Assembly (NCBI RefSeq): GCF_025685425.1 | Contig: NZ_JAGTAS010000053.1 | Coordinates: 124,001-188,000 of the forward strand | Source: Terriglobus albidus | Lineage (GTDB): Bacteria > Acidobacteriota > Terriglobia > Terriglobales > Acidobacteriaceae | Length of the DNA: 64,000 nucleotides | Direction: 5' to 3' | Part shown: one piece after another, positions 9,880 to 59,570 of the stretch | Layout of the letters: each line of letters starts with the position of its first letter | Numbering within the stretch: position 1 is the first letter of the stretch | Notes under the pieces: model-generated | Database searches by the model: none | What the model saw: only the letters and a program-made list of their open reading frames with translations | What the model was told of the DNA's origin: nothing | Translations under genes and position numbers: made by a program

Positions 9880-9987
9880 TCCTGGTCCTGGCTATGCCGG
9901 GGCGTCGTAGACTGGATCAACAACCCGGAGAGGCGCTTGCTCGCGGCAAGCGCCTTTTCCGCGTCAAAAGCGTTTGAGGAAACCGCC

Positions 9988-10965
9988 ATGAAGCTTACAC
10001 GTCTTGCACCAGTCGCCCTGCTGACCTGCTCTCTTTTTGTCCCTCCAGCATTCGCCGTGAATAAGGACATGGTGCAACTGCAGACCCAGGTGCAGGCGTT
10101 GCAGGACGCCGTCGCGCGTCTGCAGCAGGCCAATGATGAGCGAATGGGAGTCCTGCGGGATCTGGTTCAGCAGACTGCCGACTCCGTCAACCGGATGTCT
10201 GTCACGGTGGACGGTTTGCATAAGCAGATGACCACCAGCGCAGAAGCCCAGAGCGGCAAGTCCGACCAGATCAACAATCAGGTGCAGGCGCTGAACGATG
10301 CTTTGGACGAATTGAAGGCTCGCCTCGGCCGCATAGAAAAGTCGCTGACGGACGTACAAAATCAGCAGCAGTCCATCAATGCCAAGCTGGATAACGGCGT
10401 ACCTTCGGGCGGTGGGAATACCGCAGTGCCTTCGGGAACGAATCCGGCTCCTGATATGACCCCATATACGCCTCCGGCGCCGGTGGTTCCTTCGCGCAAG
10501 GGCAAGCCCACCGCCGGAACTCCGATGAGTCAGGCTCAACCAAGCGATGCTCCGGCCGCCCAGCCCGTGGCAGACGCAGCGCCGCCGGTTGCTGATCTTT
10601 ACCAGACCGCATATGGCGACTACGTTGCCGCCAAGTATGCTTTGGCGTCAGCGGAGTTCAATCGTGTTATCCAGTACTATCCGGACAACGCTCTGGCTGG
10701 GAATGCGAACTTCTACCTGGGCGAGATCGACTATCGCGCCGGAAAGTTTCCTACCGCCATCAAGTTCTATGACAAGGTGCTGGAGCAGTACCCAGGCAAT
10801 AACAAAATTGCCCTCTCTCACCTGCATAAGGGCTACGCCTTAATTGCCACACGGCAGGAGGCTGCCGGCGCTCGCGAGCTGCGTGCCCTGATTGCCCGTT
10901 ATCCTGGCACACCTGAGGCGAATCAGGCCAAGGCGAAGCTGAACGGACTGAAAGCCAGCCGCTAG
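9988..10965 (+). CDS. cpoB: CpoB/YbgF-like TPR protein of the Tol-Pal cluster
   Basis: 325 residues from ATG 9988, which starts a clean signal peptide (MKLTRLAPVALLTCSLFVPPAFA). An N-terminal coiled coil (about 25-125, QLQTQVQALQDAVARLQQ, the trimerisation part in CpoB) leads to a Pro/Ala linker and C-terminal TPRs (about 205-325: YQTAYGDYVAAKYALASAEFNRVIQYYPDNALAGNANFYLGEIDY). CpoB coordinates peptidoglycan synthesis with Tol-driven outer-membrane constriction in E. coli; the same role here is inference from context. The stop codon TAG (10963-10965) is formed by the boundary of a dispersed repeat element. Confidence 0.9.
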   Translation: MKLTRLAPVALLTCSLFVPPAFAVNKDMVQLQTQVQALQDAVARLQQANDERMGVLRDLVQQTADSVNRMSVTVDGLHKQMTTSAEAQSGKSDQINNQVQALNDALDELKARLGRIEKSLTDVQNQQQSINAKLDNGVPSGGGNTAVPSGTNPAPDMTPYTPPAPVVPSRKGKPTAGTPMSQAQPSDAPAAQPVADAAPPVADLYQTAYGDYVAAKYALASAEFNRVIQYYPDNALAGNANFYLGEIDYRAGKFPTAIKFYDKVLEQYPGNNKIALSHLHKGYALIATRQEAAGARELRALIARYPGTPEANQAKAKLNGLKASR

Positions 10966-11041
10966 AGCCTTTTCCCTGTTGCTGGGGTATCTCGATAGGG
11001 TGCTGGAACCCTACACTGCATCTACGGGAAAATGCTCTCTA
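10963..11041 (+). repeat. Dispersed TA-bounded element, shortened copy (79 bp)
   Basis: Begins TAGAGCCTTTTCCCTGTTGC and ends ACGGGAAAATGCTCTCTA. The internal palindrome present in full copies is deleted. It lies exactly between convergent cpoB and the DapA-like gene, and both genes end in a TAG lying at the element's two termini (10963-10965 on plus, 11041-11039 on minus). Confidence 0.8.
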
Positions 11042-12052
11042 GCTCCGAATTCCGTACATATGGCGCTCTACCTCTGCGCGCTGATCAGCGGTGAGCGGCA
11101 GACGCGGTAAACGAGGCTTTCCACCGTAATATCCCGTCAGTTCTGCAGCATACTTCACGCCAGCGATTCCCAATCCCCCTACGATCTCAGCCGCCGGAAC
11201 CGCGACACGAGCCTGCTTTTCTGCGGCAAGGTTGGGATCGCCGTCTTTCCACGCGGCATAGACTTCGTGACATGCCTGCGGCGCGCTGGCCGTAAAGGTC
11301 GTCAACAGTCCCTGTGCTCCGGCAGCCAAAGCATCGACCATGCCGGCATCTGAGGCGGAAAGGACCTGGAAACCTACGTTGCGTGTGCGTGTCTTGAGTG
11401 CCGGCTTCGGCGGAGCGACCGCGAGAGCAGCGCCTCCACCCGCGAGACTGCCGGCGCTCACAAAGGTTGCAGCGTCCGTACTCTGCGCCGCCTGCATCCG
11501 TCCGGTTACGGCGGAGAATACCGGCGTGACCACGACATCGCGCCGCGGAGCTTTGGACGACGCAGCAATCACAGCCGCGATATCGCTGGTTCCACTCACG
11601 ATGCCAAAGATCCTGGCATGGAGCGACAGCCGTGAAACCTCTTCCGTGTCGAGCGCTGATCCGGGGTCGAAGATCACAACGGGAAGTTCGCTGGCATCTG
11701 CGATGGCGTCGAAGTACACACAAGTTTCGACTGCAGGAACGCGGACGAGGGCCACATCGTAACCAAGGCCTGCCGCGTAATGGATCAGATCCAGCGTGGC
11801 AGCTACACCAGGGCGGCCAACACCAGCCCAAAGGAGCTTCTCGGGGGCAGCAGTGCCCACGGCTGCTGCCAGGACATCCCGAGTCTCTCTATCATCCAGC
11901 ATCTCCGCTTCGCCCGGCCCGGCAAGAATCGCGATGCCGGCGGCAGGAGTCATGGAATAGCGCGCTACATTGTGCTCCAGCTTACGCAGGTATACGCGGC
12001 CATCGGAATAAAACGGAGTGGTGGCAGGGATATGCAATCCATCGAGCAGCAT
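11039..12052 (-). CDS. DapA/DHDPS-superfamily (beta/alpha)8 protein lacking the Schiff-base lysine
   Basis: 337 residues from ATG 12052 (MLLDGLHIPATTPF). The start matches the family's G-hxxAxxTPF opening; an upstream alternative start adds 18 atypical residues. DHDPS-type aldolases bind the substrate through a lysine in the motif GIKEASGD and use a tyrosine in YNVPSRTG. Here the equivalents read FGIVSGTSD and IFDPGSALD, so lysine becomes valine and tyrosine becomes phenylalanine; the GTTGE loop is replaced by AGPGEAE. It therefore cannot work by the classical mechanism. It may be a divergent lyase, a binding protein or a catalytically dead paralogue. Its stop lies in a dispersed repeat shared with cpoB. 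Confidence 0.75.
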   Translation of the reverse strand: MLLDGLHIPATTPFYSDGRVYLRKLEHNVARYSMTPAAGIAILAGPGEAEMLDDRETRDVLAAAVGTAAPEKLLWAGVGRPGVAATLDLIHYAAGLGYDVALVRVPAVETCVYFDAIADASELPVVIFDPGSALDTEEVSRLSLHARIFGIVSGTSDIAAVIAASSKAPRRDVVVTPVFSAVTGRMQAAQSTDAATFVSAGSLAGGGAALAVAPPKPALKTRTRNVGFQVLSASDAGMVDALAAGAQGLLTTFTASAPQACHEVYAAWKDGDPNLAAEKQARVAVPAAEIVGGLGIAGVKYAAELTGYYGGKPRLPRLPLTADQRAEVERHMYGIRS

Positions 12053-12190
12053 GACTTTTATTTTAATCCGCTTCGTAGCAGTTGACGGCACCAAGGGCAA
12101 TACCACGAAAGGCTATTTCCATCACTTCCCTCGATGTCGTACCGTGTATGCAAGCCAAATAGATCATTCTGGGAGACAACAGCTCGAGGC

Positions 12191-18280: not shown

Positions 18281-18697
18281 ATGGGTAAATGGCTCGATGG
18301 CTTGCAACCGACCGCCGCTCTTCTGCTCCGCCTTACGCTTGGCATTGGCTTGATGTATTGGGGATGGGGCAAGGTGATTCCATCGCATGGAGCACCTGCG
18401 CTCTCTGCCATGAACCATCACGCAGCCTTTGTGCATTCGCTCGGCATGCCGTACTGGCTTGGCTACATCTCCGCCATCACGGAGTTCGTCGGCGGTCTGT
18501 GCCTGATCCTGGGACTACTCACTCGCTTCTGGGCAATTCTCGCTGCAATCAATATGGGCTTCGCGATCGGTCTGGTGACGATTCACAAAGGCTTCGTCGG
18601 CTCACAGTACGCGCTCTCCTGCCTTGTGATTGCCTTGATGCTGGCTACCTATGGCCCCGGCGTTATGGCAGCGGATCATCGCATCGGCCTGGACTAG
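18281..18697 (+). CDS. DoxX-family membrane protein
   Basis: 138 residues with four membrane helices. DoxX signatures: LLLRLTLGIGLMYWGWGKVIP, ITEFVGGLCLILGLLTRFWAILAAINMGFAIG, and YALSCLVIALMLATYGPGVMAADH. Family members are integral membrane proteins linked to redox or sulfur metabolism; none of that is proven here. ATG 18281 is preceded by AGAGAGG. The divergent Rieske gene may be a functional partner (inference from position). The stop TAG (18695-18697) coincides with the left end of a dispersed repeat. Confidence 0.88.
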   Translation: MGKWLDGLQPTAALLLRLTLGIGLMYWGWGKVIPSHGAPALSAMNHHAAFVHSLGMPYWLGYISAITEFVGGLCLILGLLTRFWAILAAINMGFAIGLVTIHKGFVGSQYALSCLVIALMLATYGPGVMAADHRIGLD

Positions 18698-18775
18698 AGC
18701 ATTTTCCTTGCAGCGCATTCGCATCTATGGATGTTTTCCGCAATGAAAACACTAATCAGACGCAAACGCTCTGTG
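18695..18775 (-). repeat. Dispersed TA-bounded element, decayed copy (~81 bp)
   Basis: Starts TAGAGCATTTTCC at the DoxX stop codon and contains ATCTATGGATGTTTTCCGCA and AATGAAAACA of the internal palindrome. It decays to CAAACGCTCTG at the right. Same family as the full copies at 36346 and 37649. The remaining ~220 bp before the next gene show nothing recognisable. Confidence 0.65.
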
Positions 18776-20305: not shown

Positions 20306-20415
20306 TGAAGCATTTTCTTGTTGCGGTATCCCGAAGAGGAGTGCAGCGGCGTTTTCATGGGGGAAAACGCCATGGATGCGAAATCCCTACCCTACACCTA
20401 CAGGGAAATGCTCTT
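20306..20415 (+). repeat. Dispersed TA-bounded element copy (~110 bp)
   Basis: Reads GAAGCATTTTCTTGTTGCGG, the palindrome arms GGCGTTTTC and GAAAACGCC, then CTACAGGGAAATGCTCTTA. It lies between the DUF1501 and DUF1800 genes, and the DUF1800 stop codon TAA is at its right boundary. Confidence 0.8.
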
Positions 20416-22582
20416 ATCGCCGTTGGAACTCAGGCGATCCGATCAAAAGACCGATCATATTCGCCGTCTGATCATCCAGAGGGGAGACTGCTTCTCCAGT
20501 ACGGAAGCGCCGCATAGACATGCCCGTCGGGGCCATTTCGTTGTTCTGAGTCTGTTCCTCGGTAGCAGCAAGACTCTTTTCAGCCTGGGCCTGCAGCTCT
20601 GGATTGCGGAACTGAGCAAGGACCGTTCGATGCGTTCCCTCACCGGCCGGCCTCCCCAGGAGTGCCTTCTCCAGAGCCTGTTCCTTCGCTTCTACCGATT
20701 GCTGCTCGACGGATGGGTCTCCAACAGTCACGCCAGGCAGGCTGTGTCCGAGCCGTACTCCGAAATTCATTCGATTGACCAGGGCCGCTGTGTTCAGCCA
20801 TGTCTCCTGGTCCCACTTGTAACCCGTGGGCGGCTGCGCTCCGTAAAGCGGCATACCGAGTGTGTTCATGGCTTGAACCAAAAGTAACGGATTACTTACC
20901 TCGGCTCCGGTTGCACGAACGGCACTCACAAGGAACTCCTCAGGAGTTTTGAACTTGGCGCCTTCGTTCGATTTCGCCCAGAATCCAGGCGCATCGAACA
21001 TGGTCTTCAGTACAGCCTTTATCTCTCCATGGGAGCGCGTGAAGCTGGCTGCCATCTTATCAACCAATCCTGGATCTGGATGGTCGCTGACAAAACGCTC
21101 GGCGAGTTTCTGACTGATGAAGTGCGCGGTTGCCGGGCTGGTGGCAAGCATATGGAGTACCTCAAGCCCCTCTTTCTCACCGTTTTCCTTGATTGTGACA
21201 CCCAGCACAGTCTTCGACCCAGGCTCGTGCCTCCGTTCCAGAAAAGCGAAGCTGTTCGCTGATGCGATGCCCATACCGACCTGTTGCGCTGCCTGCGGCC
21301 TGCGTCCCCGGCCAAGGGCGCCGCGAAGTTGCTTTGGACGGAATCCCGGATCGAGTGTCCATCCGGTAAAGACCTTCGCTACTTCGGTGACGTCTTGTTG
21401 CGTATATCCGCCGTTCACCCCCAGTGTGTGCAGCTCCATCAGCTCCCGGGCATAGTTTTCATTCAGGCCTCGCGGAGCATTCTGCTGTGCCGCTGCACGC
21501 AGAAAACCTCCCTGGCCGGCCGCGACAGAATTGGGGCCGGTGCTCTGGAAATTGTCGAGATAGACCAGCATTGCTGGGCTTCGGGCAACGGCTACCAGCA
21601 AGTCCTCAAAATTCCCGAGCGCGCGCGGACGAATCACGTCACGCTCATAGCTCGGCAGATAGTACGGCTCCTGCGCGTTTTTGCGGATGTACACATTAAA
21701 GTGGTTCATCCAGAAGTTCGTCATCACCTCTTCGACCTGATGTGTCGAGTAGATCTCGCGAATAAGCCGTTGCTCCATCAGCTCTGCGCCGACCAGCCGC
21801 GGTGTCCCACCCAGTGCTGCCAGCGTCTCCTTCTGTGCGGGCGACATTCCCTCTACAAGAAGAAATAACCGCTGCTGCCCCGCGATGCGTAGCGCCATCA
21901 GATCGCTGGTATTCATCGCGAGAATCTTCTGGAACCGATCCTGCGGTGAAAGAGCCGCGAGTTCCTTCATCAGCCGCTGCGGCTGTCCTGGAGCAATGCC
22001 CGCGGCCTGCATGCGTGCTTCGCGTTTGGTGGGATTGTCTTCGCCGGCAGCCATCGCATTCTGCGGCTGCATCTCATCGAGATTCTGTCCCTTTTCCTGC
22101 GCGGCAGTCCGCAGCCTGTACTGCTCGATCTGGCTGCGGTAGATCGCCCGCTCGATGGGGTCGCTGGGAAGGGATGCTCCGGTCCGATCCATCACGCGAA
22201 TCATCTGCGGACTTGGGAAGCGCCGCATTAATTCCGCAGTAGAGAGCTTCATGGCCGGATACTCGTCCAGCCGCGACAACATCGCTGTGTCATCCAGCCG
22301 ATCGGGATGGAGTTGCTGCTCGAACCAGCGATCCAGTCCGGTCTTCTCTACAGCCTCGATCTCGCCTGGACGAGGGCCGAAGGTAAACCGGCTCAGGGCG
22401 TAACGGGCGCGATCCTGAGCAGCAATACTGCCTGACGCAGCGATACTGCGTGATGCCGCAATAATTCCCACAGTTTTCGCTTTATTGGAAATCGGTCTCT
22501 CCGCCAGCAACGGCTGGCAGAGCAACATACCGCACAGTACGGCGGAACAAACGGCCTGGAAGGAAGAGTCAGAGTGAAGCAT
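20414..22582 (-). CDS. DUF1800 family protein, exported
   Basis: 722 residues from ATG 22582, which begins a signal peptide (MLHSDSSFQAVCSAVLCGMLLCQPLLA). DUF1800 hallmarks: RYALSRFTFGPRPGEIEAVEKTGLDRWFEQQL, MTNFWMNHFNVYIRK, YERDVIRPRALGNFEDLLVAVARSPAMLVYLDN, NENYARELMELHTLGVNGGYTQQDVTEVAKVFTGWTL and FISQKLAERFVSDHPD. Function unknown; it co-occurs with DUF1501 and is expected in the periplasm. The gap to the DUF1501 gene is only 176 bp and is filled by a dispersed repeat element, which may separate or attenuate the two. Confidence 0.92.
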   Translation of the reverse strand: MLHSDSSFQAVCSAVLCGMLLCQPLLAERPISNKAKTVGIIAASRSIAASGSIAAQDRARYALSRFTFGPRPGEIEAVEKTGLDRWFEQQLHPDRLDDTAMLSRLDEYPAMKLSTAELMRRFPSPQMIRVMDRTGASLPSDPIERAIYRSQIEQYRLRTAAQEKGQNLDEMQPQNAMAAGEDNPTKREARMQAAGIAPGQPQRLMKELAALSPQDRFQKILAMNTSDLMALRIAGQQRLFLLVEGMSPAQKETLAALGGTPRLVGAELMEQRLIREIYSTHQVEEVMTNFWMNHFNVYIRKNAQEPYYLPSYERDVIRPRALGNFEDLLVAVARSPAMLVYLDNFQSTGPNSVAAGQGGFLRAAAQQNAPRGLNENYARELMELHTLGVNGGYTQQDVTEVAKVFTGWTLDPGFRPKQLRGALGRGRRPQAAQQVGMGIASANSFAFLERRHEPGSKTVLGVTIKENGEKEGLEVLHMLATSPATAHFISQKLAERFVSDHPDPGLVDKMAASFTRSHGEIKAVLKTMFDAPGFWAKSNEGAKFKTPEEFLVSAVRATGAEVSNPLLLVQAMNTLGMPLYGAQPPTGYKWDQETWLNTAALVNRMNFGVRLGHSLPGVTVGDPSVEQQSVEAKEQALEKALLGRPAGEGTHRTVLAQFRNPELQAQAEKSLAATEEQTQNNEMAPTGMSMRRFRTGEAVSPLDDQTANMIGLLIGSPEFQRR

Positions 22583-22663
22583 AACAACACCTGTGGGGAA
22601 GAAACCCAATCTACCCCACAAGTTGCCGTTTGAAACGACTTTTTACCCGAAATACCCGGCGAG

Positions 22664-25426: not shown

Positions 25427-26365
25427 ATGATGCACCTTTCGATCTTCGCCCCGCAAGAAGTTCGCACCCTGCAGGTGGAACGCAACTGGCATGAGCAGGC
25501 GAGTGATTTTCTTCACCACGATCTGCCGAAAATCGCTTTCATCCTTATCTTCGGCTTCATCCTGCAGCGCATCACCCTCTTCTTTGTTAGACGCATGCGC
25601 CGCATGGCCGACCGTCAGGTGGGCAACTCGCAACGCGCCTCGCAGTTGCGCACCATGTCGTCCGTGCTGCGAGCCACGGCCTACACAGCTATAGGCTTTT
25701 ATGTTCTGCTGCAGATTCTGCCGATCTTCGATATCGACCTGAAGCCCCTGCTGGCGTCTGCCGGCGTCGTCGGACTCGGCATCTCGTTCGGAGCGCAGTC
25801 CATCTTCAAGGACATGCTGAACGGGATCTTCATTCTGCTGGAAGACCAGTTCAACGTGGGCGATTCGGTAAAGATGGCCGGGCTTACCGGAACAGTCGAA
25901 GATATGAGTCTGCGCTGCACCATTCTGCGTGACGGAGACGGAACCCAAAACATCATTCCCAACTCGCAGATCACAACAGTTCAGAACCTGTCGCGCGACT
26001 ACTCCGTCGCTTCGCTGCATGTAAGCGTCGATGCCGGAGAGAACCCAGACAAGGTGATGGAACTACTGAGCCAATTGGCGATGGATGTCCGAAGAGATAC
26101 CGCCTTTGCCCAGGTGACGATTGAAGACCCAAAGGTCCTGGGTGTCGACAAGATCAATGGCAATGAAGTCATGTACCTGGTGAATACGAAAGTGCGCGCT
26201 AACCAGAAAGATGGTGTACTGCGTGAGTTGCGGCGGCGGATCCTGCTCGGCTTCGAGAAGAACAAGATCCGGCTCGGTATTCCTTCCAGCGCCGTCATCC
26301 TTAACGCGCAGGACCCCACACTTCCCTCCGCGCCCACGACGGTGTTACCGGGAGGCGGGGACTAG
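25427..26365 (+). CDS. MscS-family mechanosensitive ion channel
   Basis: 312 residues. Three membrane helices: about 35-55 (IAFILIFGFILQRITLFFV), about 85-105 (AYTAIGFYVLLQILPIF), and the pore-lining TM3 with the Gly/Ala pattern LASAGVVGLGISFGAQSIFKDMLNGIFILLEDQF. The beta domain follows (VGDSVKMAGLTGTVEDMSLRCTILRDGDGTQNIIPNSQI), then a mixed C-terminal vestibule domain. It opens under membrane tension to release solutes. The size fits small MscS/YnaI-like channels. The stop TAG coincides with the left end of a variant repeat element. Confidence 0.93.
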   Translation: MMHLSIFAPQEVRTLQVERNWHEQASDFLHHDLPKIAFILIFGFILQRITLFFVRRMRRMADRQVGNSQRASQLRTMSSVLRATAYTAIGFYVLLQILPIFDIDLKPLLASAGVVGLGISFGAQSIFKDMLNGIFILLEDQFNVGDSVKMAGLTGTVEDMSLRCTILRDGDGTQNIIPNSQITTVQNLSRDYSVASLHVSVDAGENPDKVMELLSQLAMDVRRDTAFAQVTIEDPKVLGVDKINGNEVMYLVNTKVRANQKDGVLRELRRRILLGFEKNKIRLGIPSSAVILNAQDPTLPSAPTTVLPGGGD

Positions 26366-26474
26366 CAGTTCTCCTAAAGGTGTAGAGCGGAGTTGGGCAG
26401 TTTGCGCCGTTTCCTTCGAAGAAAACGGCATTCACAGATTTATCCAACACCAAAGTATTAGGAGAATTGCTCTA
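26363..26474. repeat. Variant TA-bounded element with TAGAGCAATTCTCCTAA ends (112 bp)
   Basis: The left end TAGCAGTTCTCCTAA and the reverse complement of the right end, TAGAGCAATTCTCCTAA, form inverted repeats. The centre has a GCCGTTTCC/GAAAACGGC palindrome. Length, TA boundary, GAGC start and layout match the main family, but the inner repeat sequence differs. It sits between convergent mscS and the YyaL-type gene and supplies the stop of both (TAG 26363-26365; TAA 26460-26458). Confidence 0.65.
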
Positions 26475-35186: not shown

Positions 35187-35603
35187 ATGATGCGTATTTC
35201 CCAAGTCTCATTTGTCGTTGCGCTTGCAGTCGTTACCGCTGTTCCATCCCACGCGATGATGCGTTCGCGGCGGGGTCCAACAGCGCCACATGTCCAGAAA
35301 AGATCGAACAAACCGGGGGCGGTACGTCATACTTCATTCAAGCCGGGCCAGCGTGGCATTGATGATAATCGCGCTACCGAGATCCAACAGGCACTGATCA
35401 AGGCAGGTTACCTGAACGGCGACCCGAGCGGCCACTGGGATTCTTCAACGGAAGCCGCAATGCAGAAGCTGCAATCTGACAATGGCTGGCAGACCAAGCT
35501 GGTGCCGGACTCCCGCGCCCTGATCAAGCTGGGCCTTGGACCACATCAGGAGAGTTCGGCCACTGCTTCCGACAGCACGTTGTCAACACTCGGATCGAAA
35601 TAA
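35187..35603 (+). CDS. Secreted peptidoglycan-binding-domain (PGBD1) protein
   Basis: 138 residues from ATG 35187 (or ATG 35190), which starts a signal peptide (MMRISQVSFVVALAVVTAVPSHA); the longer frame begins inside the upstream terminator. A basic linker leads to a PG_binding_1 domain (about 62-115): RATEIQQALIKAGYLNGDPSGHWDSSTEAAMQKLQSDNGWQTKLVPDSRALIKLGLG. It probably binds peptidoglycan in the periplasm; no enzymatic domain is attached. Such single-PGBD exported proteins are common in Terriglobia. Confidence 0.82.
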   Translation: MMRISQVSFVVALAVVTAVPSHAMMRSRRGPTAPHVQKRSNKPGAVRHTSFKPGQRGIDDNRATEIQQALIKAGYLNGDPSGHWDSSTEAAMQKLQSDNGWQTKLVPDSRALIKLGLGPHQESSATASDSTLSTLGSK

Positions 35604-35632
35604 GATCGTTTCCGGAAGGCGTTTGGACACGA

Positions 35633-35745
35633 CGGAGCGTTTCCCTGTAGATGTCGTGAAGGACTTTCGCGTCTATGGCATTTCCGCAGTGAAAACGCCC
35701 CCGCACTCCTGTTCCGAAATACCCAGCAATAGGGAAAATGCTCTA
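35633..35745 (-). repeat. Dispersed TA-bounded element copy (~113 bp)
   Basis: Left end degenerate (CGGAGCGTTTCCCTGTAG); right end intact (AATAGGGAAAATGCTCTA). The internal palindrome region reads CATTTCCGCAGTGAAAACG. It ends 10 bp before the GTG start of the next gene, so it may carry that gene's 5' region. Same orientation as the copy at 36346. Confidence 0.85.
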
Positions 35746-35755
35746 GTCTGGAAGA

Positions 35756-36340
35756 GTGAAGCGACGGATCGTTGTTCTCTTCCTTCTGGCAATAGCGGCA
35801 AGCGCTCATGCCGTTGAGCTGAAGATCTCAGCCGATGCATTGGAGCGCACCCTGAAACAGCAGTTATTCAATACTCCCGACGGCCGCTATTATCTCCGCG
35901 GCGATGCGGCGTCAGCCTGTTATGTCTACGCCGAGAAACCCCATGTCAGCTTCAAAGAAGATCGCATCATTGTCAGCGTGCACACCAGATCCCGCGTGGG
36001 CGCCGGATTGCGCGGCGCATGTATCGGGGTGGGACTGACGACGGATGCCGATGTATCCATGTTGCCGGAGGCCGAAGGTGAAACCATCGGCTTCCGCGAT
36101 ACTCACATCGACCAGCTAAGTACCTCGAAAGAGTTAGGCTTTCTTCTGGTTCCCTTTCTCAGCCGCAAGCTGCCGCAGAATATGAAAGTCAATGCAGCGG
36201 ATCTGTTGCGCCAGGCGCTGACCAAGTCAGGTACTTCCACCGGATACCTGCTGGCGCTGGAGCGACTGAAGATTCACTCCATGCTGATCGAGCAGGGAGC
36301 GCTGGTTGTGGATGTGGATGGAGCTGTGACCGTGAAGTAG
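35756..36340 (+). CDS. Secreted protein of unknown function
   Basis: 194 residues with GTG start at 35756 (weak CTGGAAGA upstream) and a signal peptide (MKRRIVVLFLLAIAASAHA). The mature part (VELKISADALERTLKQQLFNTPDGRYYLRGD ... SFKEDRIIVSVHTRSRVGAGLRGACIGVGLTTDADVSMLPEAEGETIGFRDTHIDQLS) alternates beta-like segments and resembles lipid- or ligand-binding periplasmic folds such as DUF1439/YceB, but I cannot assign it. It is bracketed by two dispersed repeats in direct orientation (35633 and 36346), so it could be deleted by recombination between them. Confidence 0.65.
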   Translation: MKRRIVVLFLLAIAASAHAVELKISADALERTLKQQLFNTPDGRYYLRGDAASACYVYAEKPHVSFKEDRIIVSVHTRSRVGAGLRGACIGVGLTTDADVSMLPEAEGETIGFRDTHIDQLSTSKELGFLLVPFLSRKLPQNMKVNAADLLRQALTKSGTSTGYLLALERLKIHSMLIEQGALVVDVDGAVTVK

Positions 36341-36345
36341 ACCGT

Positions 36346-36461
36346 TACAGCATTTTCCCTGTAGGTGTCGTGTAGAGCTTCCGCATCTATGGGCGTTTTC
36401 CGCAATGAAAACGCCGCTGCACTCCTCTTCCGGAATACCCAGCAACAGGGAAAATGCTCTA
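36346..36461 (-). repeat. Dispersed TA-bounded element, full copy (116 bp)
   Basis: TACAGCATTTTCCCTGTAGG at the left and AACAGGGAAAATGCTCTA at the right, with internal arms GGCGTTTTCC and GAAAACGCC. It lies between convergent genes; the ROK gene's TAG stop (36461-36459 on minus) is made by the right boundary. Confidence 0.9.
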
Positions 36462-37613
36462 CAGCGCGCGGTCGTTCATTACGAGAGCTACGGCACTACG
36501 CAGACGGGCCAGACTTCCCTCAAATGCTGGACGGAGCCTTGGACCGCTGTGGAAGGCATTCCGGCGCATCTCTTCCTCAATAACCGGCGAGACCAGTTGC
36601 CAGACCGTGGTGATATCACCCACGATGACGATCTCGCTCGGCGCAAGGCCTGAAGCAATCATGCGCAGACCTCTGCCGAGGCGGCGGGCCATTGTCTGAA
36701 TGGCAGCAACTGCGTGTTCCTCCCCGATTTGCGCCAGGTGCAACAACGTATCGAAGGCCGCCAGACGGCTGCCGCCCTGCTGCTCGTAATAACGCAGTGC
36801 CGCGCGGTTCGAAGCGGTAACCTCCCAGCAGCCGTGATTGCCGCAGGCACAGGCCGGTCCGCCCTCTTCCATCTGCACGTGGCCGAACTCGCCGGCCATA
36901 CCGGCCTCACCACGAAGAAGCTGACCGTTGGCAAAAATGCCTGTACCGATTCCCTCGGCAACGTTCACGACGACAAGATCGTGCATCCCATCGCTTTCTC
37001 CGAACCAGACCTCGGAGAGAGCGCAGGCATTGGCGACATTGTCCATCTCAACGCGCAGACCTGTGGCACGCTCGATGCGCTGCTTGACGGCCAGCACCGG
37101 CCAATGAAGGTTAGGAGCAAAGATAAGCTTCTGTTGATCGAGATCGGCACGGCCTGGAACACAGATACCGATGCCATCCAGAGCGCGTTCGGGATGGGTA
37201 TCCACCATTCTGCGAACTGCCTTGATGATCGCATTCATCGCCAGCTTGGAATCATCGGGAAGCGGGACAAGACTCTGCGAGATCACACGGCCACCGAGAT
37301 CAACGATGCCGAGCGTCGTCTGTGCCGGATGAATGTCGAGTGCAAGGACAGCGCGCTTGTCATTCACCTGCAGGAAGGTTGGCCGACGACCGCGAGGCAG
37401 GCGGCCAACTTCACCTTCGATGATCCATCCGCCGGAGATCAGTTCCTCAACAATGAGAGAGACCGTGCTGCGCTGCAGGCCGGAGAGACGTGAGAGCTCT
37501 GCCCTGGAGACAGGCTGGCGTGTACGGACAAGATTGAAGACCAGCGAGAGATTGATCTGGCGTGGAGTCTTGTTCGAAGCGCTCTGGTGACGTGTAAGGC
37601 GGAATCGTTGCAA
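36459..37613 (-). CDS. ROK-family transcriptional regulator (NagC/XylR type)
   Basis: 384 residues. An N-terminal winged helix-turn-helix (about 20-75: INLSLVFNLVRTRQPVSRAELSRLSGLQRSTVSLIVEELISGGWI) precedes a ROK sugar-kinase-like domain (AVLALDIHPAQTTLGIVDLGG). The zinc/ROK signature is GEFGHVQMEEGGPACACGNHGCWEV. In other bacteria such proteins sense sugars or sugar phosphates (GlcNAc-6-P, xylose). No sugar operon adjoins it, so target and ligand are unknown; the distant GH89/GH95 genes are a possible but unsupported target. The gene is flanked by two dispersed elements in inverted orientation (36346 and 37649). Confidence 0.92.
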   Translation of the reverse strand: MQRFRLTRHQSASNKTPRQINLSLVFNLVRTRQPVSRAELSRLSGLQRSTVSLIVEELISGGWIIEGEVGRLPRGRRPTFLQVNDKRAVLALDIHPAQTTLGIVDLGGRVISQSLVPLPDDSKLAMNAIIKAVRRMVDTHPERALDGIGICVPGRADLDQQKLIFAPNLHWPVLAVKQRIERATGLRVEMDNVANACALSEVWFGESDGMHDLVVVNVAEGIGTGIFANGQLLRGEAGMAGEFGHVQMEEGGPACACGNHGCWEVTASNRAALRYYEQQGGSRLAAFDTLLHLAQIGEEHAVAAIQTMARRLGRGLRMIASGLAPSEIVIVGDITTVWQLVSPVIEEEMRRNAFHSGPRLRPAFEGSLARLRSAVALVMNDRAL

Positions 37614-37648
37614 GCTTGGGTCGTCCGTACGTTACGTTCCCAGCATCT

Positions 37649-37764
37649 TAGAGCATTTTCCCTGTTGCTGGGTATCCCGGAAGAGGAGTGCAGCGGCGTT
37701 TTCATTGCGGAAAACGCCCATAAATGCGGAAGCCCTACACTACACCTGCAGAGAAAATGCTCTA
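37649..37764 (+). repeat. Dispersed TA-bounded element, full copy (116 bp), best-preserved
   Basis: TAGAGCATTTTCCCTGTTGC at the left; GAGAAAATGCTCTA at the right. Internal palindrome arms GGCGTTTTC and GAAAACGCC are separated by 6 nt. Flanking dinucleotide TA at both ends. It lies between tRNA-Val and the ROK gene, upstream of the latter. Confidence 0.9.
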
Positions 37765-37822
37765 GCTGGAGCAGACCACCATATGGAAGTCTTTCGTCTT
37801 CTTTGCAATCCATGTTGGGGAA

Positions 37823-37899
<77 letters not shown>

Positions 37900-37965
37900 A
37901 TTCCTCTATGAGTTTATCGCAAATTTGTGTGGATGACTGCCTTGTCCTCATATTCCATCATTTCA

Positions 37966-39558
37966 TCATTGCGGTCTGGCTACTGGCTGCGGTTTACCCC
38001 ACACACTGTCGAGGAACAGATAGCGCTCTCGATGTTGATCTGCCTTCGCTGCCGAATTCTTATCCAGCACCATTACCTGCCATTGACTCGGGCCATAAAC
38101 AGGCCACTTCGGTAGCCCTGGTCCATTGGGATCGCCGGTACGCGCGAAGTTCGTCCAGTAGTCCTGCATCTGCTCCGAGAGTTTGCGATCTTCTGGACGC
38201 ACTACGACCTCCAGGCGCGAGTCCAGTGTTCCGAAGACATATTCGATATCGTCGGAGTGAAACGCTCCTACCGCAGGAGTATGGTAGCGGTCACCCGGAT
38301 TCGGTAGAGCAAACTTGTAGCGATACACAGGCTTCGTGCCGGTTGCCGTGTGTGCCTCCAGCCACTTCCATGTCGAGTAGGCGATGAAGCGATCACCTGC
38401 ATAGTCGGAGGCGGACGCCACTGCTTCTTCAGGAGTTGCTGCGCTGTACAGCTTCAGAAACTCCTCGGCCTGCGTTGGGAACTCACGCTTCGCTTGTGCG
38501 GCGAAACCTTCGGCGCTGAAGCGGTTGTTTCCGCCCACTACTCCTCCGCGAGCTTCATCCGCATTCCATCCTGCGAGCAGTGGAATATGTGCCTGCTCAC
38601 CCGCGGCATAGATCTCCGCCGGCGGCTTCGGGAAGAAATACCCATCGACCACCGGGCGGAACGAGGGTCCGGGCCGCGTTGCCATGATGGGACGAATGAT
38701 GTCTTCCGTCGGAATGTGCCGCAGTTCCGCAAGCTTGGTCGTGCCATAGGTCGTAAGCGCGAAGGCGGAGTCTGTCTTCTCCCGCTGCTCACGGCTCTCG
38801 ATTGGGAAGGTGCCGGTGGTCATCACACTTCCGCTTTCACCGATTGCCTTCTGAATGAGATCCTTCGAAAGCGGCGAGGCCATCTGCGCACTGACGGACA
38901 TCGAGCCTGCCGACTCGCCGAAGATAGTGATGTTGGAAGGGTCACCACCGAATGCCGCGATATTCTGCTTCACCCACTGAATGGCTGCTGCCTGATCCAG
39001 GAGACCGTAGTTCCCCGAAGCGTGATTCGGAGACTCTGCCGTCAACTCCGGGTGCACGAAGAAACCGAAGATCCCGAGCCGGTAGTTCATGGAGACAACC
39101 ACGACGTTGCGATGGGCGAGATACTGGCCGTCCTGCCGGCGCTCCGATGTGCTGCCGCCGGCGAAGCCGCCACCGTAGATCCAGACCATGACCGGCAGCT
39201 TGCTGGTTTCAGAGGCCGCGGGTGTCCAAACATTGAGGGTCAGGCAGTCCTCTGAGGCTCCAGGATCATGAAAGGCCATATCTGCGTAGCTGGCGGACTG
39301 CACACAGTGATATCCAAAATCGTGTGCGGACCGTACACCGGTCCACGGTTCAACAGGCGCGGGCGGCGCCCAGCGTAACTTGCCTATCGGAGGAGCTGCA
39401 AAAGGAATGCCCTTGAAGGACATAACCTTGCCATCGGTTGTCGGTTCTCCTTCAACAACACCGCTGGCAGTTTTGATTTGCGGTCCGATTGCGGCGAAGG
39501 CGGATGCTCCAAGAACAAAGGTTGCAGCGAGCGAAAACAGAGAGCGTGCAAATTCCAT
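37966..39558 (-). CDS. Type-B carboxylesterase, exported
   Basis: 530 residues with a signal peptide (MEFARSLFSLAATFVLGASAFA). Alpha/beta hydrolase of the COesterase family: VMSFKGIPFAAPPIGKLRW, EDCLTLNVWTP, oxyanion segment VMVWIYGGGFAGGS, nucleophile Ser216 in GESAG, catalytic Glu in WNADEARGG and His in VGAFHSDDIEYVFG. All triad residues are present. It hydrolyses carboxylic esters in the periplasm or outside; substrate unknown. It lies downstream of the DUF885-like lipoprotein gene (244-bp gap), so cotranscription is uncertain. Confidence 0.93.
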   Translation of the reverse strand: MEFARSLFSLAATFVLGASAFAAIGPQIKTASGVVEGEPTTDGKVMSFKGIPFAAPPIGKLRWAPPAPVEPWTGVRSAHDFGYHCVQSASYADMAFHDPGASEDCLTLNVWTPAASETSKLPVMVWIYGGGFAGGSTSERRQDGQYLAHRNVVVVSMNYRLGIFGFFVHPELTAESPNHASGNYGLLDQAAAIQWVKQNIAAFGGDPSNITIFGESAGSMSVSAQMASPLSKDLIQKAIGESGSVMTTGTFPIESREQREKTDSAFALTTYGTTKLAELRHIPTEDIIRPIMATRPGPSFRPVVDGYFFPKPPAEIYAAGEQAHIPLLAGWNADEARGGVVGGNNRFSAEGFAAQAKREFPTQAEEFLKLYSAATPEEAVASASDYAGDRFIAYSTWKWLEAHTATGTKPVYRYKFALPNPGDRYHTPAVGAFHSDDIEYVFGTLDSRLEVVVRPEDRKLSEQMQDYWTNFARTGDPNGPGLPKWPVYGPSQWQVMVLDKNSAAKADQHRERYLFLDSVWGKPQPVARPQ

Positions 39559-46405: not shown

Positions 46406-48010
46406 CTACTCATAGCGGAGCGAAGTCATTGGCGTCACCCGCGAGGCCTCGCGGGCTGGATAGTAACCGAACAAGATTCCTACCACGGCTGAGAGACCGA
46501 ACGAGATGAAGATCGCGAGGGGGGAGATACTCGTCGACCAGGCAACCATCCTGGTAATGGAGCCGGAGGCAAGCACTCCAAACAGGATGCCGAGCACTCC
46601 TCCCGTAAGGCTCAGCGTCACCGCCTCTATCAGGAACTGCAGCATTACCTCATTCGACCGTGCACCCACCGCACGCCGAATGCCGATCTCCTTTGTACGT
46701 TCGGTCACTGAGAGCAGCATGATGTTCATGATGCCGATACCGCCGACGATCAGCGAAACCGAAGCGATGCTGGCCAGCAGAGCTGTCATGGTACGGCTTG
46801 CCCGGTCGAGGGTCTTACCTAACTGCTCCAGTGTCACTTTATCGAGGTTAGTGACATTCCCGGTGATAGCACGCGCGATATCGGTGCGCATGCCTCCCCG
46901 CGCCAGCGACTTGCGTGCCTGGCTGGAGACAACGAAGTCATCAGGATCCTCGTGCGCCAATCCATGACGCTGCCGAAGGAGAGCTGCGATGCTCTTCGTT
47001 ACGCGCGTGACGTCGCCGGTTGAGACAGTGGATACGGTGATCGAGTCTAGCGCCTGCTTGCCAAGCAGATTCTGCCCTGTCGTTACCGGCACATAGATAG
47101 CATCGAATTGATCGTCACCGATCGCTGCCGGCACCATCCAGCTACTACTGCCAACCACTCCGACAACATGAAAGCTTCTTCCCCGGATCGTAACGTTCCT
47201 GCCTATCGGATTCGCATTTCCGAAGAGCCTCTCTGCGGCAATGCTTCCTAATACGATCGTGTTCGCAGCAGTTGCGATCTCATTTCCGGAGAAGAAACGT
47301 CCTTTCGTAAAGGTCCATGCCCTTCTTATAGAAGGCAGATCCTTTCCCTCTCCATGCATACGTGTGTACCAGGTAGCATCAGCAGCTTTGACCAGAACGT
47401 TCTCAGCAACTCCGGCGGAGGTCCACTGAACACCATTCAGATCGGCAATCGCATCTGCATCGGAGAGGCTGAGCTTGTCAGAAGCTCCAAGACCTGCCGC
47501 GTTCTCACCGCTATGAGCGATCCCCTGTTGCGGATTCGTTCCCGGCTGGAACACTCTTGTCAACGACACAGGAGACGATGGCTTCCACGTTAGAGCATTT
47601 TCCCTGTTGCTGGGTATCCCGGAAGGAGCGTGCAGCGGCATTTTCATTGCGGAAAACGCCCATAGACGCGGATGCTCGACTCTACACCTACAGGGAAAAT
47701 GCTCTAGCGTTCGAAAACGAGCACGATAGCCCTCTGGAAGATAGGCTGCTGGCTCTTCCGCCTCGCCCTGGCTCGTCCACTGCTGCTGCATCTTGTAGTT
47801 GCCGGAGCTGACGACGATCACGTTCATACCAGCGGCGCGGACCTGGTCCTGAATTGCTGCCTGTGCTCCGCTGCCCAGGGCAATCATGGTAAGCACGGTA
47901 GCTACACCAATCGTCATGCCACACATAGTAAGAATCGTCTGCAGCTTATTCCGCTGCAGCGCTCGCCAGGCGATGGCTGTACTCTTTCGAATCGAAGTGA
48001 GGTCTGCCAT
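46406..48010 (-). CDS. MacB-like ABC transporter permease carrying an in-frame repeat insertion
   Basis: 534 residues from ATG 48010 (MADLTSIRKSTAIAWRALQRNKLQTILTMCGMTIGVATVLTMIALGSGAQAAIQDQV); the upstream extension is in the neighbouring gene. One N-terminal helix, a periplasmic MacB_PCD domain, and the FtsX-type C-terminus with three helices (IASVSLIVGGIGIMNIMLLSVTERTKEIGIRRAVGARSNEVMLQFLIEAVTLSLTGG). Residues 103-140 (start EHFPCRCRVEHPRLWAFS) are encoded by a dispersed repeat element; the two sister permeases lack this block. Removing 114 bp rejoins CTA-ACG in frame. It lies last in the ATPase-permease-permease-permease operon, 8 bp after its neighbour. It may still be functional. Confidence 0.88.
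   Translation of the reverse strand: MADLTSIRKSTAIAWRALQRNKLQTILTMCGMTIGVATVLTMIALGSGAQAAIQDQVRAAGMNVIVVSSGNYKMQQQWTSQGEAEEPAAYLPEGYRARFRTLEHFPCRCRVEHPRLWAFSAMKMPLHAPSGIPSNRENALTWKPSSPVSLTRVFQPGTNPQQGIAHSGENAAGLGASDKLSLSDADAIADLNGVQWTSAGVAENVLVKAADATWYTRMHGEGKDLPSIRRAWTFTKGRFFSGNEIATAANTIVLGSIAAERLFGNANPIGRNVTIRGRSFHVVGVVGSSSWMVPAAIGDDQFDAIYVPVTTGQNLLGKQALDSITVSTVSTGDVTRVTKSIAALLRQRHGLAHEDPDDFVVSSQARKSLARGGMRTDIARAITGNVTNLDKVTLEQLGKTLDRASRTMTALLASIASVSLIVGGIGIMNIMLLSVTERTKEIGIRRAVGARSNEVMLQFLIEAVTLSLTGGVLGILFGVLASGSITRMVAWSTSISPLAIFISFGLSAVVGILFGYYPAREASRVTPMTSLRYE
47591..47706 (+). repeat. Dispersed TA-bounded element, full copy (116 bp), inserted in a coding sequence
   Basis: TAGAGCATTTTCCCTGTTGC at the left and CTACAGGGAAAATGCTCTA at the right, with TA at both boundaries. 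It interrupts the periplasmic domain of a MacB-like permease between codons 102 and 141 without a frameshift or stop. Confidence 0.92.
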
Positions 48011-48018
48011 GCGGTGTC

Positions 48019-49380
48019 TTACTCGAAACGCAGGGCGTCGATGGGATTCAGCTTCGAAGCACGGCGGGCCGGGTAGAAACCAAAGAAGACACCGGTGGCC
48101 GCGGCGATGCCAAACGCCATGGCAACGGCCGTGGGGGACACGGTGGCATCCCATTGCAACGTACGTGTGATGGTGAATGAAGCTAGAAATCCGAGGATGA
48201 TTCCGAGAACTCCCCCTGAGACGCCGAGGGTCACGGCTTCGACGAGGAACTGCATCAGGACGTCGTAGGAGCGTGCCCCAACCGCGCGACGGATGCCGAT
48301 CTCACGCGTCCGTTCCGTGACTGAGACAAGCATGATGTTCATGATGCCAATGCCCCCGACGATGAGTGAGATAGTCGCGATTGCAGCTAACAGGGCCGTC
48401 ATCGTCTGCCCGGCACGGTTCAGGGTTCCGGACATCTCCTGCATGTTGACCTGATCCATCTGAGGCATATTAGCGAGAATGAAGGCGGCCACAGAAGTAT
48501 TCAGCCCCTTAGTCAGAGCCTCCGAGGCCTGTGTCTTGACGGTGAAGTCATCCGGAGTTCCGCTCATAGTGGCGCCCTGCAGACCTCCCAGGCCGAGGCC
48601 GGCAGAGGTTGAGGGCTTTGGGACCGACTCGAGTTTGTGACGTGAGCGAAGCAGCGGGACTATATCCCTGGCGACGTCTGAGGCCTTGCCGGCTTCTTCC
48701 GCCGAAACCATGATGTTCGACAGATAGCTGATACCAAGCATCTTCTGCAACTTGGTGTAAGGGATGATCGCCATCTGCGACTGCTCTTCGTCGCTGGTGG
48801 AGAAGACGCCCTTCACCTTGAACTTTTCACCGTGGATCTCGATCTCTTCTCCGACTGGATTGACATCGGCAAAGAGGTTATCCCCCAAGGTGGCGCCGAT
48901 GACAGCCACATTCTCGGCGTCCTCCACCGCGCCTTTCTTGAAGAACTTCCCTTCTTCAAAGTTCCAGTCATACATCTCAGCGTAGTCCGCATCGACGCCA
49001 TAGACCTGGGTGTAGGTCTTGTCGTTGCCGTAGGCTACCCATCCGCGCATGCGTGTCAACGGAGAGACATGAGCCACACCTTGCACCTGGGAGCGGATAG
49101 CTTCGGCGTCGTCAGCAATCAGGTTGGTGGCTGAGCCTAGGCCGGTGGCGATCTTGGACTCTTCTCCGCCGCGTGTAAAGTTGCCGGCACGCACATTGAT
49201 AAGGGTTGTGCCGGCCGATTTCACATCCTTAGAGACAGACTGCTGAGCTCCGGTGCCAAGAGCGAACATCGTCAGCACCGCTGCGACGCCAATAGTCATA
49301 CCGAGCATGGCAAGGCAGGTGCGCAGCTTATTGGTTTTGAGAGCTTTAACCGCAATCTTGAAGCTTTTGCTGATCACCAT
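48019..49380 (-). CDS. MacB-like ABC transporter permease
   Basis: 453 residues. N-terminal helix region KALKTNKLRTCLAMLGMTIGVAAVLTMFALGTGAQ, a periplasmic domain (TLINVRAGNFTRGGEES to about residue 290), and FtsX C-terminus ATISLIVGGIGIMNIMLVSVTERTREIGIRRAVGARSYDVLMQFLVEAVTLGVSGG. The ATG shares its A with the stop codon of the preceding permease (TAATG), so translation is coupled. MacB permeases do not carry substrate through the membrane; they transmit ATPase conformational change to periplasmic cargo or an adaptor. The periplasmic domain differs clearly from both sister permeases. Confidence 0.92.
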   Translation of the reverse strand: MVISKSFKIAVKALKTNKLRTCLAMLGMTIGVAAVLTMFALGTGAQQSVSKDVKSAGTTLINVRAGNFTRGGEESKIATGLGSATNLIADDAEAIRSQVQGVAHVSPLTRMRGWVAYGNDKTYTQVYGVDADYAEMYDWNFEEGKFFKKGAVEDAENVAVIGATLGDNLFADVNPVGEEIEIHGEKFKVKGVFSTSDEEQSQMAIIPYTKLQKMLGISYLSNIMVSAEEAGKASDVARDIVPLLRSRHKLESVPKPSTSAGLGLGGLQGATMSGTPDDFTVKTQASEALTKGLNTSVAAFILANMPQMDQVNMQEMSGTLNRAGQTMTALLAAIATISLIVGGIGIMNIMLVSVTERTREIGIRRAVGARSYDVLMQFLVEAVTLGVSGGVLGIILGFLASFTITRTLQWDATVSPTAVAMAFGIAAATGVFFGFYPARRASKLNPIDALRFE

Positions 49381-59466: not shown

Positions 59467-59570
59467 TAGAGCATTTTTCCTGTAGGTGTAGAGTAGGGCC
59501 TCCGCATTTATGGGCATTTTCCGCCGCTTCACGCCCTTTAGAAATACCCGACAACAGGGAAAATGCTCTA
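59467..59570 (-). repeat. Dispersed TA-bounded element copy (104 bp)
   Basis: TAGAGCATTTTTCCTGTAGG at the left, AACAGGGAAAATGCTCTA at the right; the internal palindrome is partly changed (GGGCATTTTCCGCCGCTTCA). It lies between the convergent monooxygenase and GH89 genes. Confidence 0.87.

Follow-up and report, generated by a model that had tools for sequence, protein, structure and literature searches.

Stop-codon seating in a mobile family of TA-flanked miniature inverted-repeat elements of Terriglobus albidus

Among the described repeats closest to the elements reported here is the repeat unit of pneumococcus (RUP), which is 107 bp long and linked to IS630-Spn1 in the available passages of PMC2229807 and PMC3049150. 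The 155-bp form of the Correia element is said in the excerpted literature to carry an IHF motif, and in Coxiella burnetii the miniature inverted-repeat transposable element (MITE) QMITE2 extends the protein of one gene, enhC, by 33 residues (passages of PMC5896051). The subject of this work is a family of inverted-repeat elements of about 116 bp in Terriglobus albidus, found in a 64,000-nucleotide stretch of contig NZ_JAGTAS010000053.1 (positions 124,001 to 188,000; hereafter the window). The family is mobile and duplicates a 2-bp TA target, and in 39 of 95 full copies a terminal TA coincides with that of a stop codon. An earlier note, made from the letters of the window alone, had listed nine copies; the stop-codon seating, a second family and the structural conservation across genera go beyond it. 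The T. albidus genome (G000) is a 6.10 Mb draft in 58 contigs, and was compared chiefly with that of a related species, G001, which is a single contig.

Copy number, mobility and target site

A search of the whole G000 genome with the 26-mer end TAGAGCATTTTCCCTGTTGCTGGGTA (≤3 mismatches) gave 298 matches, and the reversed control gave none. All nine copies of the earlier note are present on inspection of the sequences, and the 17-mer end occurs 11 times in the window (≤3 mismatches), far above 100 shuffles (mean 0.05, maximum 1). Eight of the nine belong to one family, and the copy at 26363, listed as a variant, is a member of a sister family rather than a degraded copy; the right end of the copy at 18695 lies at 18752 instead of 18775, and that at 20306 runs to 20416. 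With a profile built from 30 copies, 111 copies were annotated in 1.304 Mb of G000. Of these, 95 are full; the full set includes at least one sister-family copy (C28:552227), and the window copies 10963 and 26363 stand outside it. The commonest lengths of full copies are 116 bp (45 copies) and 115 bp (24 copies). The elements are thus short, lack a transposase gene and end in inverted repeats of 17 bp, which are the features of a MITE. The terminal inverted repeats extend over 17-18 bp (TAGAGCATTTTCCCTGT), beyond which the two ends are not interchangeable, one continuing with TTGCTGGGTA and the other with AGGTGTAG. The central palindrome described earlier is present, with one base changed in the left arm of copy 47591 (GGCATTTTC). 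The median identity of pairs of copies is 82%, and the quartiles for nearest neighbours are 87, 91 and 93%. As judged by these identities, with the best dispersed pair at 96.6% and the sole identical pair in a tandem array, the expansion was probably not very recent.

Positions 1-56236 of the window are colinear with G001 (about 84-91% identity), where the copies at 10963, 18695, 20306, 26363, 36346, 37649 and 47591 are absent. The comparison was extended to 60 full copies on contigs C28 and C54, of which 33 have no comparable site in the G001 stretches; the remaining 27 are absent from G001 in 18 cases, present in 7 and unclear in 2. The gap at the 18 empty sites measures 2 nt in 12 (TA in 10, CA in 2), 3 nt in 2, 1 nt in 2, 0 nt in 1 and 4 nt in 1. 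In the reverse direction, 18 full G001 copies were compared with G000, where 6 are present, 4 absent, 3 unclear and 5 not comparable; the gaps of the four absent copies are -4, 1, 2 and 4 nt, and the 2-nt one lies inside another copy. The TA boundary claimed in the earlier note therefore holds as the replacement of a single TA by TA-element-TA, except that copy 35633 has no left TA. The flanks of the 95 copies prefer the context H-TA-R (left C 43, T 31, A 18, G 3; right G 45, A 34, T 8, C 8).

The sister family, with ends TAGAGCAATTCTCCTAA and TAGAGCAGTTCTCCTAAAGGTG, has the same anatomy and further copies in the same genomes. One of its members is nested in a main-family element (C28:626006-626121) with TC instead of TA on both sides, so that these two bases represent duplicated target and not element sequence.

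Head-to-tail arrays occur on contigs C28 and C39 (for example C39:265262-265720), with 11 adjacent pairs among the 111 copies. Both members have the same orientation in all 11, and nine have the junction CTCTA-(G/A)TC-GCATTTTC or nearly so; the other two have TC and ACC. A shared TA had been expected at these junctions. At loci L175, L185 and L195 of two other carrier metagenome-assembled genomes (MAGs), neighbouring copies share a TA exactly.

Seating at stop codons

The 39 stop-codon copies stand beside 55 intergenic copies and one inside a gene. The 16 partial copies among the 111 were left out of the position test. Per 1000 TA sites there are 59.0 copies at stop codons (39/661), 18.1 in the next 5 bp downstream (3/166) and 2.1-17.5 in the remaining intergenic classes. 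The 28,964 coding TA sites have no copy, the one in-gene copy being counted separately. On matched TA-flank bases 14.8 stop-codon copies are expected (p 1.7e-9), and a logistic model with three context bases per side, fitted to 94 copies after omission of the in-gene copy, gives an odds ratio of 4.18 for stop codons (p 1.8e-9). In G001 the stop class holds 9 of the 18 full copies.

If the TAG of the element itself truncated a gene, the result would look like stop-codon seating, and the empty site is therefore the decisive check. For all ten stop-class copies whose orthologous site is empty, the site falls on or adjoins a stop codon of the G001 gene, compared with none of the eight other copies. 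The artefact is thus ruled out for these ten but not for the other 29. Either end of the element occurs at stop codons (23 and 17 cases). Both ends read TAG, so that a TAA or TAG stop becomes TAG, and the stop survives with the protein untouched. Among loci fetched from 23 genomes, 25 of 38 elements have an open reading frame (ORF) of at least 80 amino acids ending at the element's TAG or TAA; the count adds little, because a random-TA TAG meets such an ORF in 42% of cases (1040/2458).

The enrichment would arise mainly from the survival of harmless insertions. Alternatively, stop codons would be actively targeted, the transposition machinery favouring gene ends by way of DNA features or of terminating transcription and translation. 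The persistence of the enrichment after correction for three context bases per side would fit such targeting, as would the use of both element ends, the higher rate at stop codons than just downstream, where insertion should be almost as harmless, and the age of the copies, since those absent from G001 are in stop codons as often (10/18) as the older ones shared with it (3/7). The downstream contrast is weak, however, with just three copies in the 5-bp bin, and intergenic TA sites may be under promoter or terminator constraint or differ in a wider context preference. We know of no IS630 element that senses gene ends. Active targeting is accordingly judged unlikely, though with a real chance of being correct. 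A literature search that included passages of PMC2229807, PMC3049150, PMC5896051, PMC2759123 and PMC10969869 gave no report of stop-codon-seated MITEs recognisable from titles and the starts of abstracts, which is not proof of absence.

Copies in the window are listed in Table 1. The copy in the MacB-like permease gene (Pfam MacB_PCD and FtsX) adds 38 codons, giving a protein of 535 amino acids (aa) compared with 497 aa in G001, where the empty site is 2 nt (CA); insertion of a 116-bp element lengthens the sequence by 114 bp net, and three of the six reading frames of the consensus are open. One permease of the window has a below-cut-off ADOP match. The half element at 18695-18752 stops just past the central hairpin yet has a TA empty site; as its hairpin arm GAAAACGC resembles the end GAAAATGC, it may have arisen by deletion between short repeats.

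Table 1. Copies of the two element families in the window, with their state in related genomes and the adjoining genes.
Position	Strand	Copy	Related genomes	Gene context
10963..11041	+	Main family, internally deleted (79 bp)	2-nt gap = TA in G001, context CGC-TA-GCT	Two convergent ORFs both terminate in the element, one per end: left TA = stop-codon TA of ORF 9937-10965 (+); right end = stop of ORF 11039-12106 (-)
18695..18752	-	Half copy (58 bp), TA flanks	G001 continues ..GGAC-TA-ATTAGAC	Left TA = stop codon of ORF 18281-18697 (DoxX)
20306..20416	+	Full, degenerate	G001 gene has TAG there	Right end in stop codon of ORF 20414-22621 (-) (DUF1800)
26363..26474	-	Sister family; TAGAGCAATTCTCC ends, central GCCGTTTTC hairpin	2-nt gap = TA in G001	Left TA = stop codon of ORF 25427-26365 (mechanosensitive channel)
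35633..35745	-	Older, degenerate, left TA lost	Absent in G001; common to G008 and G010 (90 bp deleted there)	
36346..36461	-	Full	Site empty in G001, whose gene likewise ends in TAG	Right end = stop codon of ORF 36459-37613 (-) (ROK family)
37649..37764	+	Full; reference copy of the finding	Empty site 2 nt = TA in G001; ..ATCTTAGCTGG.. without element also in G008, G010 and non-carrier G018	Intergenic
47591..47706	+	Full		In frame within MacB-like permease gene, ORF 46406-48154 (-)
59467..59570	-	Internally deleted (104 bp)	No alignable ortholog in regions compared	Intergenic

Relationship to IS630 and candidate drivers

The earlier note had proposed a non-autonomous element of the IS630/Tc1 type, which the TA empty sites and the similarity of the ends to those of IS630 elements support. 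Matches to DDE_3, the IS630 transposase family, were found in 4 of 19 genomes of the genus. The one in G015, of the same genus, belongs to the element L060, which measures 1024 bp, contains two ORFs that overlap (DDE_3 and HTH_Tnp_IS630) and terminates in TAGAGCATTTTC, with C and T as flanks. Of 300 genomes of the family, 81 have a match to its transposase. Related genomes yielded seven members of the IS630 family, 1012-1031 bp long and with TAGAGCATTT-type ends (L060, L117, L118, L119, L134, L138 and L143), their ends being TAGAGCATTTTC or the close variants TAGAGCAGTTYT, TAGAGCATTTCT and TAGCGCATTTCT. At positions 18-24, three of the ends carry AGGTGTA exactly where the MITE has it, and most others carry a similar motif; the left end of L119 is identical to the MITE over the outer 12 bp, with AGGTGTA in register. 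A matrix was made from 20 IS630 ends, leaving out L135 and L130 (TAGTGTAC type), L126, L128 and L140. The AGGTGTA end of the MITE scores 25.1 on this matrix, above all 71,358 TA 26-mers of G000 (maximum 19.9), and when positions 13-26, its inner part, are scored alone, a fraction of 7.5e-5 of the sampled positions scores as high.

Given these results, the elements are very probably IS630/Tc1-type MITEs inserted in trans at TA, among which insertions into stop codons leave the protein unchanged and persist. An IS630 transposase acting in trans would bind the element ends and insert the element into a TA in H-TA-R context, with duplication of the TA; where that TA belongs to a TAA or TAG stop, the stop would be regenerated, as both ends read TAG, and with the upstream protein unchanged such insertions would persist. 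The cognate IS630 copy would since have been lost from the lineage, or be present elsewhere.

Several observations weigh against this account. No IS630 element with the full 17-bp MITE end was found, so that the autonomous partner sought since the earlier note is missing, and the L060-type transposase has no match in either the draft G000 or the single-contig G001. The IS630 element that both genomes do contain has other ends, TATTGATTCCTGC; on the matrix one of these falls below most random sites and the other is no better than about half of them. The second MITE end (TTGCTGGGTA) fits the matrix less well than the first, since 9 of the 71,358 background sites score as high or higher, and the elements of the matrix were picked for look-alike ends, being 10 of 15 distinct elements with proposed ends (30 distinct loci). 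Gene calling used a simple script based on hexamers (coding fraction 0.86), and the stop class has one base of slack. The older copies shared with G001 are in stop codons no more frequently than those absent from it, although continued purging predicts this, the numbers being small, and the 96.6% identity of the best dispersed pair does not establish present activity.

Copies of the TATTGATTCCTGC-type IS630 are L062 (G000, contig C35) and L063 and L064 (G001). The two in G001 are 99.9% identical, and this element, whose ends do not match those of the MITE, was probably active recently.

A longer autonomous element was sought among end matches outside annotated copies, of which the 1.304 Mb of G000 contain seven. 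One is the internally deleted window copy 10963, one the distal end of a copy into which a sister-family element has inserted, and three have 3 mismatches. The last two are perfect solo ends without a second end in the examined sequence, and the DDE_3 matches of G000 are all on contigs other than theirs. No related transposase was found in the window either, in line with the earlier note: of the two families searched, DDE_3 and Y1, all G000 matches lie off its contig. Around end matches in other genera, 20 loci were examined; they contained MITEs, fragments or single ends and gave no match to the L060 transposase.

The missing autonomous cognate in carriers would also suit mobilisation by a TA-duplicating transposase outside IS630, such as an IS427-like transposase of the IS5 family, and other families with a 2-bp target exist. 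The seven related IS630 elements with TAGAGCATTT-type ends, and the three ends with AGGTGTA at the exact MITE position, argue against such a driver, which is thought quite improbable; the comparison rests on the IS630 side, IS5-type families lying outside the search.

REPIN-like elements spread by a RAYT (Y1 transposase) were the alternative named in the earlier note. The elements are indeed palindromic and scattered, and Y1_Tnp matches occur in G000 (10, the highest number in the genus), in G001 (7, the next highest) and in 17 of the 19 genus genomes. However, 13 of the 15 non-carriers also have Y1 matches, and three of seven RAYT loci of carriers (22.9 kb) contain a copy, which is near the background of about one copy per 12 kb in G000. 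The ends resemble those of IS630, and a 2-bp TA duplication with 17-bp terminal inverted repeats is not RAYT/REP anatomy. Spread by a RAYT is thus scarcely credible, and IS630-type mobilisation in trans is retained.

Central hairpin, distribution and comparison with known systems

Hairpins were compared in 26 elements with two recognisable ends from about 20 genomes, mostly of other genera, 12 being used from one batch of 20 loci. Their length is 112-118 bp in 25 and 124 bp in one, and in 25 of 26 a 9-bp stem with a 5-7 nt loop lies within 1 nt of the element centre. The hairpin, chosen in each element as its best, beats at least 295 of 300 shuffles in 19 of 26; in G057 and G235, 93 and 42 shuffles respectively do as well, and the hairpin is not exceptional. 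The outer stem varies by lineage with both sides changed (GGCG/CGCC, GCCG/CGGC, CAGC/GCTG, TGGC/GCCA), and its positions pair in 24-26 of 26 elements, which are not independent events since many share one stem. In an alignment of 16 sequences selected as well behaved, both partners have changed in 12 of 26 pairs (8 at the ends and 4 in the central stem), compared with 3.8 in shuffles and 1-6 when the alignment was slid; the left arm is out of register in four or five rows, which weakens the central stem (85% of its cells paired). Relatives in other genera thus retain length and central hairpin while the stem changes on both strands. This suggests that the hairpin matters for transposition or for host tolerance, and it is possible that the paired changes come from restoration of the palindrome by template switching.

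Folding of single strands gave z values of -4.3 to -5.9 for copies 37649 (both strands), 47591 and 26363. Such strong folding, the conserved central hairpin and the frequent position just behind coding sequences could be expected of a fixed regulatory or structural sequence (a terminator, attenuator, small RNA or protein-binding repeat) spread by recombination and kept by the host. Against this stand the absence of the element at 18 of the 27 comparable loci, with clean 2-nt empty sites at 12, the patchy occurrence in 4 of 19 genus genomes and the lack of a T-run after the central hairpin; moreover, terminator-like sites in 35500-38000 number 2, compared with 2.2 in shuffles, one of them overlapping an end of copy 37649. 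A fixed host sequence is very improbable, whereas secondary use of the elements by the host is possible. A further reading combines structure with targeting: a structured, family-wide MITE lineage would actively target stop codons, its complex recognising gene ends, its TAG ends hiding the insertion from the protein, and its hairpin, kept by paired changes, serving as a portable 3' untranslated structure that the host tolerates or uses. As a whole this combination is plainly unlikely, and persistence of harmless insertions of an IS630-type MITE is still preferred.

Within the genus, four of the 19 genomes carry the 26-mer end (298, 217, 170 and 175 matches) and 15 have none. A looser end pattern is matched in 27 of 398 genomes of the taxonomic family, namely the four genus carriers and 23 others with 1-17 matches each. 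A covariance model, with nine candidates scored per genome and strict filters, found the element in 18 of the 396 genomes sampled from the phylum; all belong to the same family, and one is the genus member G013, which lacks the exact end. An exact 26-mer scan of a species-genome collection, from which the own genome was possibly left out, gave 48 stretches, spread over three MAGs with Acidobacteria or Acidobacteriaceae as title. No match to the element was obtained in plasmid and phage collections up to E 0.1, or in the window with Rfam 15 at gathering score, which gave two tRNAs only.

In G106, of another genus, loci L144-L151 form a subfamily with ends TAGATCATTTTC (10 end matches), and a relative of the IS630 transposase lies elsewhere in that genome (L128). 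Loci L315, L317, L332, L333 and L336 (G164, G230 and G219, different species of another genus) have identical flanking bases, which suggests old insertions retained at the same site.

Entry into the TA of a stop codon with TAG at both ends would be a simple route for a parasite in a gene-dense genome, and many genes thereby gain a strong hairpin directly behind the stop codon. With hundreds of copies at single-base resolution and empty orthologous sites, targeting and survival can be tested directly against each other. The conserved centre amid diverged sequence raises the question of what the hairpin does for a MITE, which is testable here because distant relatives exist.

Rhizobial RIME repeats were an early literature lead that led nowhere. 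The IS630 elements of related genomes share end sequences, often an AGGTGTA-like subterminal motif, and TA flanks with the MITE, but are about 1.0 kb long with a transposase and differ at positions 13-17 and in the interior. According to the available passages, RUP is similar in its length of about 110 bp, IS630-like ends, TA target, about 100 or more copies and a stem-loop with paired ends, a likeness by description, the sequences not having been compared. It differs in that IS630-Spn1 is common in the same species, whereas no cognate was found here, and in that 41% of the full copies of the present family are in a stop codon, the consensus is open in three of six frames and there is a cross-genus structural record. 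Correia/NEMIS and ERIC elements, as described in passages of PMC2229807 and PMC2759123, likewise have TA ends, lengths of roughly 100-160 bp, terminal inverted repeats and stable RNA stem-loops, and some are fused in frame to genes; they are set apart by description through other hosts and end sequences, and those passages do not mention stop-codon seating. QMITE2, in the part of its source available, is like the present family a bacterial MITE able to supply the 3' end of a gene, but where it lengthens a single protein, the TAG of the element described here replaces the stop codon of many genes and leaves their proteins unchanged.
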